64,000 nt of DNA from Tautonia sociabilis. Lineage in GTDB: Bacteria; Planctomycetota; Planctomycetia; Isosphaerales; Isosphaeraceae. The notes beneath the pieces are model-generated. The model saw nothing but the letters and a program-made list of their open reading frames with translations, was not told the DNA's origin and did no database searches. Numbering within the stretch: the first letter of the stretch is position 1; the number at the start of each line of letters is the position of its first letter. Positions 30,337 to 33,113 of the stretch are shown in pieces. The position numbers and the translations under genes were made by a program. The stretch lies in contig NZ_RYZH01000014.1 in assembly GCF_003977685.1 (NCBI RefSeq), positions 62,001 through 126,000 on the forward strand. The letters run 5' to 3'.

Positions 30337-31398
30337 TCAGAACCGGAGCCACACCCCCGGCTCGGCGGGGAGGACCCGGCCGACGACCGCCGCGGCCGGC
30401 GTGTTCCGTGCTCGAAGGGCCCGGATCAGCGCGTCGGCCCGCTCGGGGGAGACGGCGATCAGCAGGCCGCCGGAGGTCTGAGCGTCGAGCGCGAATTCGA
30501 GGCGGAGGGGGTCGACGCCGGGGGACAGCTCCCAGCCATCCTGCACGGCCTCTCGGTTGGTCTTGCTCGCCCGGGTGAAGTTGCGGGGAACGGCCAGCGC
30601 CTCGGCCCCCTCGATCAGCGGCAGGGCCGCCAGGTCGATCGCGATGGTCGCGCCCGAGCCAACGGCCATTTCCCGGGCGTGCCCGGCCAGGCCGAAGCCG
30701 GTCACGTCGGTCAGCGCGTGGGTGCCGCCCACTTCGGCGAGGGCGTCCCGGGCGTCGGCGTTCAGGCGGATCATGCTCGCCACGGCTCGGTCGAGCACCT
30801 CGGCAGGGCATCGCCGTCGCTTGGCCGCGGTGGTGATGACGCCGGTGCCCAGCGGCTTGGTGAGCACGAGCACGTCTCCGGGCCGGGCTCCCGCGTTGGT
30901 GAGCACCTCGTCGGGGTGGACCAGGCCGGTGACGCTCAGCCCGAACTTGATCTCGGCGTCCCGAACCGTGTGCCCGCCGACGGTCGTCGCGCCGGCCCTG
31001 GCGACGCGCTCCCCGGCCCCGGCGAGGATCTGGCCGAGCAGCTCCAACGGCAACTGATCGTCGGGGAAGGCGGCGATGTTCATGGCCGTCAGCGGACGCC
31101 CGTTCATCGCGTAGACGTCCGACAGGGCGTTGGCCGCGGCGATCTGGCCGAAGAGGTACGGGTCGTCGACCAGAGGAGGGAAGAAGTCGACCGTCTGCAC
31201 CAGCGCCAGGTCGGGCGCGATGCGGTACACCCCCGCGTCGTCGCTCGTCTCGGTGGCGACGAGCAGGTCCTCGGGCCGGCTCGGGGCGATGGTGGGCAAG
31301 GCGCGCAGAACCTGCGCGATCCCCCCGGGGGGGAGCTTGCCCGCTCACCCGGCGCAGTTGGCGTAATCGGTCAGTCGCTTCCGTCGTCCGAAGCTCAA
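30337..31398 (-). CDS. selD: Selenophosphate synthetase SelD with in-frame TGA read as selenocysteine
   Basis: SelD makes selenophosphate from selenide and ATP. With codon 18 (TGA, 31345-31347) read as Sec, the frame from the TTG at 31398 gives a 353-residue protein starting MSFGRRKRLTDYANCAG, then Sec18, then AGKLPPGGIAQVL. This is the catalytic Cys/Sec loop with the conserved Lys (Lys21). Downstream family motifs are VQTVDFFPPLVDDPYLFGQ, NALSDVYAMNGRP and ALTDVTGFGLAGHA. GGAGGAG stands 8 bases before the TTG. A gene call ignoring TGA would start at 31299 and lose the active site. A 7-bp stem with a GTT loop (31302-31318) follows the TGA. It begins 66 bases after the SelW-like stop. Confidence 0.9.
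31302..31318 (-). promoter_or_regulatory. Candidate bacterial SECIS hairpin in selD
   Basis: On the leftward transcript CGCGCAG and CTGCGCG form a perfect 7-bp stem around GTT; the core GCAGGTTCTGC resembles the GCAGGTCTGC apex of the E. coli fdhF SECIS. The loop lies 33 bases after the TGA, within the range I recall for bacterial SECIS elements. A C-run/G-run helix (around 31318-31336) separates them. Confidence 0.65.
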
Positions 31399-31464
31399 AG
31401 CGGGTCTCCTCCGGGGCCGGCCTGTCCTCCCCGATCGGGCCGGCTCCCGGGGGCCTCCTCTCGC

Positions 31465-31704
31465 TCACTCCAAGAGCAGAGGGGCGACCTCGCCAAGGAT
31501 CTGGTCTTCGTCGGGGAACCGACCCGTCTGCACCTTCGAATCAACGAGCGATCCGCCCACGGTCCGTTCGAAATTCCCTCCCTTGGAGGGGATCAGCGTC
31601 AGCCGGCCGATCGTCCGCTTGAACCGGGGCCGCGGCTTCGCCGTCAGCCTGACGGCCTGGGGCTCATGGTTTCAGAGGGCGCGGTCTTCGAGCGTCACGT
31701 CCAT
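31465..31704 (-). CDS. SelW/Rdx-like selenoprotein candidate (in-frame TGA at codon 11)
   Basis: The leftward frame from the ATG at 31704 (AAGGAGG 7 bases upstream) reads MDVTLEDRAL, TGA, NHEPQAVRL, and ends GRFPDEDQILGEVAPLLLE, 79 residues in all. IGRLTLIPSKGGNFERTVGG and the GRFP motif match the Rdx/SelW thioredoxin-fold family, whose CxxC/CxxU motif sits exactly where the TGA falls (31672-31674). Unusually, the first Cys of that motif is Arg (RAL-Sec), and a usual Tyr before it is Asp. Thus it may be a diverged Sec protein or an early pseudogene. A 7-bp stem with loop GGC follows at 31640-31656. A TAGAAT hexamer at 31738-31743 could serve as -10. Confidence 0.7.
31640..31656 (-). promoter_or_regulatory. 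Candidate SECIS hairpin in the SelW-like gene
   Basis: On the leftward transcript GCCGTCA and TGACGGC pair perfectly over 7 bp around a GGC loop. The loop begins 22 bases after the TGA, a spacing close to the 18 bases of E. coli fdhF. Confidence 0.6.
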
Positions 31705-31740
31705 GGGGATCCTCCTTCGGAACCGGAACGGTCCCGGATT

Positions 31741-32919
31741 CTAGCCCCGGCCAAGCCGCCGGGCCAGCAACCGGCGCCGGTTTCGTTTCGGTTCGGGATC
31801 CGGCCCGGGTTCGGTGGCCGGCTCGATGGCGGGTTCGGGCTTCTCCTCGGGCTGGGGAGCCGGCCGGGCTCGGCTCATCAGGTCGGCCCAGTGCCGAGAC
31901 GCGGGAAGGTGCTGGAGGACCAGCTTGATGCTCACGGTGATTGGGATCGCCAGGATCAGGCCCATCAGCCCCCAGAGGAAGCCCCAGAACAAGCAGGCGA
32001 TAAGCACGGTCGTCCCGTTCAGGTCGAGCGACCTTCCCATGACGTAGGGCATCACCAGATACCCCTCGACCGTCACGATCGCCAGGAAGACTGAGGCCAC
32101 GATCAGCCCGTCGGCGATCGAGCCGCGCTGGCCCAGCGTGACCAGCACCGCGAGCGAGCCGCCGGCCACGTTGCCGATGTACGGGATGTAGTTCGTCACC
32201 CCGGCGAAGACGCCCAGCGGCACGGCGAAATCAATCCCCAGCAGCATCAGGGCCACGGCCGTCGCCGCTCCGAGACCGATGTTCAGCACGGTGCGGGCGA
32301 GCAGGTAGGCGCGGACCTTGCGCGTGACGTTCTTGAGCGTCCGCTCCAGGGCCATCGACTCCCCGGCCTCGACGGTGATCAGGTGGACCACTCGGGGAAC
32401 GATCAGCTCGGCCTCGGCCAGCAGGAAGAGCACCAGGAACAGCACCACCACGCCGTGGCCGACCCAGGCGGTCAGGTCGGTCAGCCGGTAGTTGAGCGTG
32501 TTGAGCAGCAGCTCCCGGTTGGTGTAGCCGAGGATGTCGATCGTCCCCGGCTCGGGCAGGATGTTGGCGAGGTAGGGGTGGTCGCGCACCGCGTCGTTGA
32601 CGCGCTCGCTCAGGCGGGAGGCCAGCCGCTCCACGTCCGAAGGGAAAGTGCGGGCCGCCTGGACCAGGCTCTCGGCGGTCAGGCTGGCGGCGTACAGCCC
32701 GGCCAGCGCCAGCAGCAGGAAGAGGATCACCGCGGCGCCGAACGGCCCGACCGGCAGCAGGCGGCGGAGCAGGTGCGTGGCGGGTGAGAGCAGGCAGGCC
32801 AGCAGGATTGAGACCGAGATCGGGATCAGGATCGGCTTGAGCAGGTAGAGCGCCGCGATGACGCCGAGGGTCGCGATGATCGTCAGCGACGGGCTGGCCG
32901 GCCTGGCAGTCGAGTCCAT
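31741..32919 (-). CDS. AI-2E/PerM-family permease
   Basis: This 392-residue polytopic protein has the AI-2E family outline. N-terminal helix pairs (LTIIATLGVIAALYLLKPIL) are followed by a large extramembrane helical region (residues about 100-160). A C-terminal helix cluster then contains GVFAGVTNYIPYIGNVAGG and VMGRSLDLNGTTVLIACLFW. A Pro/Glu-rich then Arg-rich tail ends the protein. Members export small molecules or act as Na+/H+-type exchangers; the substrate is unknown. The start at 32919 has GGAGGAG upstream and is preferred to the ATG at 32973. Confidence 0.88.
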   Translation of the reverse strand: MDSTARPASPSLTIIATLGVIAALYLLKPILIPISVSILLACLLSPATHLLRRLLPVGPFGAAVILFLLLALAGLYAASLTAESLVQAARTFPSDVERLASRLSERVNDAVRDHPYLANILPEPGTIDILGYTNRELLLNTLNYRLTDLTAWVGHGVVVLFLVLFLLAEAELIVPRVVHLITVEAGESMALERTLKNVTRKVRAYLLARTVLNIGLGAATAVALMLLGIDFAVPLGVFAGVTNYIPYIGNVAGGSLAVLVTLGQRGSIADGLIVASVFLAIVTVEGYLVMPYVMGRSLDLNGTTVLIACLFWGFLWGLMGLILAIPITVSIKLVLQHLPASRHWADLMSRARPAPQPEEKPEPAIEPATEPGPDPEPKRNRRRLLARRLGRG

Positions 32920-33113
32920 CCGGCTCCTCCGCTCGGTGCGTCGGGCGGCCCGACACCGCCCGTCCCGGTTCAATCTTCGGCCAGCCGGAGGCGGATGACA
33001 AGGGGACCGATCCGACCCGGCCCGGACCGCTCAAGCGGGCCGCCCCCCCCGGTCGATCCCTGTCAGGCGCGGACGAACTCGCGCGACGTCCGCCGGCGAC
33101 CAGGAGGGTCGAG

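Follow-up and report, generated by a model that had tools for sequence, protein, structure and literature searches.

The window analysed here (the whole stretch of 64,000 nucleotides from Tautonia sociabilis) carries an AI-2E family permease gene, a short selW-like frame and selD, all on one strand (minus) and with the selW-like frame in the middle. The features of this region are as follows (coordinates refer to the window).

31741–32973, minus strand: AI-2E family permease, the upstream neighbour of selW (in the upstream flank of 12 of the 18 selW loci of the bacterial family)
31711–31717, minus strand: AAGGAGG, Shine-Dalgarno-like, 6 bases 5' of the ATG (read in the sequence)
31465–31704, minus strand: selW-like (Rdx family) frame, ATG start, 79 codons plus TGA stop
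31681–31683, minus strand: CGC (Arg), codon 8 of the selW-like frame, a position at which every other parsed UGA-bearing SelW locus (151) has Cys
31672–31674, minus strand: in-frame TGA (Sec), codon 11 of the selW-like frame
31640–31656, minus strand: bacterial-type SECIS hairpin of selW, GCCGTCA-GGC-TGACGGC, the loop beginning 22 nt past the TGA
31628–31657, minus strand: competing, stabler predicted fold that occupies the SECIS stem, partly due to codons 24 and 25 (CCG CGG)
30337–31398, minus strand: selD (selenide, water dikinase), a Sec gene with the motif C-A-G-U and a likely TTG start
31345–31347, minus strand: in-frame TGA (Sec) of selD, within the motif C-A-G-U
31303–31317, minus strand: SECIS-like hairpin of selD, GCGCAG-GTT-CTGCGC, the loop 33 nt past the TGA (placed by eye)

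The initial annotation had described a 79-residue frame with ATG and AAGGAGG that is interrupted only by a TGA at codon 11, and the sequence bears this out: other stops and indels are absent, so that the frame is not broken in the manner of a pseudogene. With Sec inserted, the product reads MDVTLEDRALUNHEPQAVRLTAKPRPRFKRTIGRLTLIPSKGGNFERTVGGSLVDSKVQTGRFPDEDQILGEVAPLLLE. The selD frame reaches upstream of the TTG at 31299, which is the start under table 11.

The proposed membership of the Rdx/SelW family holds. The Pfam family Rdx (PF10262) matches the read-through product with 33.3 bits (cut-off 22.6, U entered as C). The scores with NCBIfam models are below the cut-off (TIGR02174: 28.8 bits, cut-off 34.2; NF041051: 51 bits, cut-off 88); the relative G001 attains 52.1 bits with TIGR02174, which is above the cut-off, and 66.4 bits with NF041051, which is below 88 too. 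A profile search returned eight solved relatives, including Atu0228 (2fa8) and Selenoprotein W (2npb). The same genome yielded no second Rdx match at E 0.001 (6.76 Mb draft, about 95% complete, 133 contigs).

A selW homologue was detected in 19 of the 45 genomes of the bacterial family (Isosphaeraceae) that were searched, the own genome included, which shows that the frame did not arise by chance. The best match of each of these 19 genomes has one TGA, and among the 20 family matches listed only the second copy from G007 lacks it. This copy (L025, G007:C84:4635-4832) codes for a second, Cys-type Rdx protein (CAEC), and G007 has a UGA-type selW as well. The family alignment comprises 18 loci (one from each of the 19 genomes with a homologue, minus G060), and the survey of relatives for TGA or TGC at codon 11, as proposed at the outset, returned TGA at the identical codon in all 18. 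Stops elsewhere in the relatives' frame had been named as the sign that would betray a pseudogene; in the 19 best family matches none were found in the aligned frame besides the single TGA, and a second TGA in G004 is the terminal stop of its frame.

The location next to selD is likewise a trait of the family. The gene selD was found in the downstream flank examined of 15 of the 18 family selW loci (window included; 14 of the 17 relatives), and both the AI-2E permease and selD flank selW in 11 of the 18. Longer stretches were available from eight relatives, with selD in eight and AI-2E in five. By place and by homology, the window frame is a true selW orthologue. It is like bacterial SelW-like selenoproteins (PF10262; TIGR02174/NF041051) in length, profile family, UGA at the Sec position and position of the SECIS, and with selW from the same family (G001 to G003, G035, and others) it shares the homologous frame and the UGA. 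The relatives themselves look like normal CxxU members of an established selenoprotein family.

At the phylum level, a SelW match was obtained in 141 of 392 genomes, and one TGA is present in 139 of 150 matches (window included) among the matches listed; the UGA type of SelW is widely distributed across the phylum. A search of genome contigs for related loci returned four, three of them titled Acidobacteria/Acidobacteriota and one Chloroflexi.

Sec decoding in this genome is likely real, since selD carries a Sec codon of its own and the genome encodes SelA, SelB, and a tRNA-Sec with anticodon UCA; the proposed Sec-decoding setting is thereby supported. SelA scores 501.5 bits and SelB 322.3 bits, both above the cut-off, and tRNA-Sec scores 65.9 bits. 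The SelB match covers model positions 2–345 of 581, and the open frame that contains it (L068, 541–3138) is 865 codons long. The set selA, selB, selC, and selD, by which a Sec-decoding genome is recognized, is thus complete. Sec is encoded by 13 of 15 selD genes, in which a hairpin of the type GCGCAR-GTN-YTGCGY is kept (by eye). In L003/L073 (G035) and L017 (G030), SelD has Cys for Sec and the SECIS-like hairpin is gone, which serves as an internal control; the UGA of the adjoining selW is retained in both.

Other genes, too, seem to make use of the Sec trait, because two of the 29 AhpC-TSA matches in the genome contain one TGA each, with the UxxC motifs UPFC and UPVC. Downstream of each of these redoxin-like frames (G000:C89:125646-126038, L085; G000:C40:73702-74097, L117) there is a stem whose loop contains GU (by eye), and both frames probably encode further selenoproteins. 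None of the three molybdopterin-family (PF00384) matches of the genome contains an internal stop.

The selW SECIS of the family is of the type GCCGTCA-GTY-TGACGGC, 22 nt after the UGA. Its loop seems to be kept for the sake of the RNA, because the Ser19 codon from which it is built is AGT in all 17 other members, although AGT accounts for only 8 of 192 Ser codons across 15 selD genes. The window hairpin, with a stem of 7 bp, the loop GGC and a distance of 22 nt from the UGA, agrees with the bSECIS model, in which an upper stem of 4–16 bp carries a G in the first two loop positions (G[G|U]) and the loop lies 16–37 nt from the UGA (PMC13188914, in the part available); SECIS nucleotides of prokaryotes are treated in PMC8659212 (excerpt). 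An Rfam scan of positions 31200–31800 returned nothing above the gathering scores. We considered whether the GG loop of the window amounts to a loss of SelB recognition. We rejected this reading in view of the same model (PMC13188914, as far as available) and of other CxxU loci: GG occurs at the aligned loop position in 9 of 152 loci (window included), and the eight others are CxxU with loops GGT, GGA or GGC at 22 nt from the UGA.

Taken alone, the window hairpin has −11.5 kcal/mol, the same as in G001, and its stem is unbroken. It is absent, however, from the predicted minimum fold of a longer stretch (−17.4 kcal/mol vs. −12.3 kcal/mol when the SECIS helix is imposed, a difference of 5.1). 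The helix is part of the minimum fold in 16 of the 18 family members, the exceptions being the window and G035, and the SECIS pairing probability of the window is the 16th lowest of 152 loci, so that other loci share this weakness. This fold test is weak because the SECIS helix is missing from the predicted ensemble of G035 as well, which has a normal CxxU. The selW of G035 (L003) shows a C·A mismatch in the SECIS stem and is otherwise a normal CxxU gene. The competing fold, a prediction for naked RNA, only suggests that Sec insertion may be weaker in the window gene.

The Sec codon had been placed at the U of a CxxU motif. The position of the TGA stands, but the Cys of the motif is replaced by Arg (31681–31683), which makes it RxxU. 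The window copy thus lacks the CxxU (or CxxC) redox motif of Rdx/SelW proteins and has R-A-L-U (EDRALU), whereas EYCAxU is found in all 17 other aligned family members. Among 152 parsed UGA-bearing SelW loci, 151 have C..U and the window is the sole R..U. These 152 loci include, besides the window, 128 UGA-bearing matches from the phylum search (ten other listed UGA matches were left out, and the 11 listed phylum matches without UGA are outside the parse); the loci without UGA L024–L026 and the loci L036 and L038 were excluded, and some genomes contribute two loci.

The loss of the motif Cys is not an isolated change. The window selW deviates at 8 of the 31 columns which are invariant in the 17 other family members (Y7D, C8R, Y13H, S19R, L25R, C44N, Y55D, L58V) and keeps 23; each of the 17 others deviates at none or one when the window is kept out of the background. 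L24P and L47R are further changes unique to the window. With Arg for Cys8 and Asn for the second family-conserved Cys, the product has zero cysteines. The SelD from the same genome deviates at 0 of the 115 columns invariant in 14 others, while these 14 relatives deviate at 0 to 7. The genome is thus not simply fast-evolving or badly sequenced, since SelD shows 0/115 changes while selW shows 8/31.

Selection was assessed with our own codon model (GY type, F3x4) on 15 taxa with the SelD topology, covering 72 codons after exclusion of the start and UGA codons. Of the 19 homologue-bearing genomes of the family, 15 are represented in the set; left out were G007, G019, and G032 (selD absent from the flank examined), G060 (unaligned) and loci from outside the family. 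For selW, the window branch has an estimated ω of 0.48, compared with 0.089 (about 0.09) for the background of relatives (2ΔlnL 8.03); a run with 7 taxa gave 0.38 and 0.088 (2ΔlnL 6.1). For selD, the corresponding values are 0.045 and 0.031, which is not significant (7 taxa). When each of the 15 terminal branches was taken as the foreground, that of the window alone was significantly raised. Given this result, together with the replacement of Cys8 by Arg and of the second family-invariant Cys by Asn, the initial expectation of a normal CxxU SelW is not supported. The branches of G020 and G014 (2ΔlnL 9.81 and 6.35) were rejected as cases of raised ω: there ω is near zero with runaway dS, which is saturation and a deviation in the opposite direction.

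A set of 120 null simulations applied a single ω to every site and took its branch proportions from selD; their highest 2ΔlnL was 6.0, and the window value was attained in none (0/120). Because of exactly these settings, the simulations give no fair yardstick for how many invariant columns change. Neutrality (ω = 1) on the window branch is not rejected (2ΔlnL 0.68), and the estimate of 0.48, which rests on 72 codons and on one genome without a closer sister, is compatible with weak purifying selection too. Between the window and G001, 26 nonsynonymous and 10 synonymous codon differences were counted in the 72 codons of selW; for selD, with 309 codons, the counts are 54 and 84. The synonymous distance on the window branch is 0.27 (15 taxa) or 0.33 (7 taxa) for selW, vs. 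about 1.3 for selD; the numbers are small, but the low selW value speaks against a branch that was simply neutral throughout. Starting from a G001-like gene and with assumed indel rates, the frame stays free of stops and indels with a probability of 0.15 to 0.47 after 10 to 14 neutral substitutions, and of about 0.02 to 0.10 after about 29, the number for a branch that was neutral over its full length. As the frame, the ribosome site, and the UGA are unbroken, decay would have to be recent, or constraint partial.

We thus consider it probable (about 0.62) that the window selW is a pseudogene at an early stage, or is in the process of losing its function, in a genome that has kept Sec decoding. 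In the relatives, UGA is presumably read as Sec by means of the hairpin 22 nt downstream, and Cys8 and Sec11 would form a reversible selenenylsulfide redox site, a mechanism taken over from the protein family. In the window gene, selective constraint would have been lost; Cys8 has been replaced by Arg, Cys44 by Asn and the conserved leucine pair by Pro-Arg. An ordinary CxxU cycle is impossible in the window product because no Cys is left. The frame, the ribosome site, the UGA, and the SECIS stem persist in the gene, and Sec decoding itself is kept, presumably for SelD and the two UxxC redoxin-like proteins. We infer a loss of function, reduced Sec insertion, and decay rather than a new function.

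Alternatively, the product may be a functional but altered SelW, which is made with Sec, is Cys-free, and either serves a binding role or acts as a single-selenol protein whose partner is an external thiol (glutathione-like or thioredoxin). The retention of the open frame, ribosome site, UGA, and SECIS stem and of 23 of the 31 family-invariant columns is in favour of this, an unbroken frame being improbable over a fully neutral branch, and non-Cys partners are known elsewhere from the TxxU and GxxU families (PMC13188914, excerpt). RxxU, however, does not occur in any other parsed locus (0/151), and the branch test does not reject ω = 1. In addition, where a helix is expected, Pro-Arg has taken the place of the leucine pair, and an expected strand contains an Arg; the placement of the changed residues in helix and strand is one that we take from Rdx folds. 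On balance, we regard a functional altered SelW as unlikely. The specific form in which Sec alone does the chemistry of a Cys-free RxxU SelW, with changed partner or function and translation still passing through the UGA, seems to us distinctly unlikely.

A sequencing or assembly error that masks a normal gene would be conceivable for a single draft genome of 133 contigs, but it would have to produce eight changes at invariant columns with zero frameshifts, next to a SelD with 0/115, and we give it little credence. As for a normal CxxU SelW selenoprotein, family, position of the UGA, and Sec machinery agree with it, but the CxxU Cys is Arg and Cys44 is Asn, so that we hold it to be very improbable. 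A chance open frame which is not selW and in which UGA is an ordinary stop, as could be imagined because G+C-rich sequence opens many frames, is refuted as to ancestry by the Rdx match, the adjacency to selD and the UGA common to the relatives, and its probability is negligible.

SelW genes have been completely overlooked in genome annotation before, according to the part of PMC4607533 available, and missed SelW genes as such are thus already known and not new. In two marine metagenome surveys, SelW-like proteins with CxxU rank first among selenoproteins in abundance or in breadth of occurrence (PMC1088965, PMC2398784; excerpts), and the first of these surveys calls their function unclear in the portion available (PMC1088965). 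SelW-like families with CxxU and TxxU motifs, and the loss of SelW-like genes in sister organisms, are described in PMC1794560 (available part). The lost cases (Table 4 of that paper, as far as available) have in common with ours that the loss of a SelW-like gene is lineage-specific and other selenoproteins remain; there, however, the gene is absent from the sister organisms, whereas the window copy would be part-way, with its frame still open. A selenoprotein family table accompanies the bSECIS model in PMC13188914 (excerpt), and the term "SelW" does not occur in the available part of PMC9312934. A literature search at the level of titles and abstract openings returned no decaying and no RxxU SelW.

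If decay of the window selW is the correct reading, this genome would represent a natural experiment in which Sec decoding is kept while selW decays. It would show a selenoprotein gene in the course of dying, its redox Cys gone before its UGA, and would mean that SelW is dispensable where SelD and redoxin-like selenoproteins are kept. It would also be a warning that a correctly placed in-frame UGA alone is no proof of a working selenoprotein.
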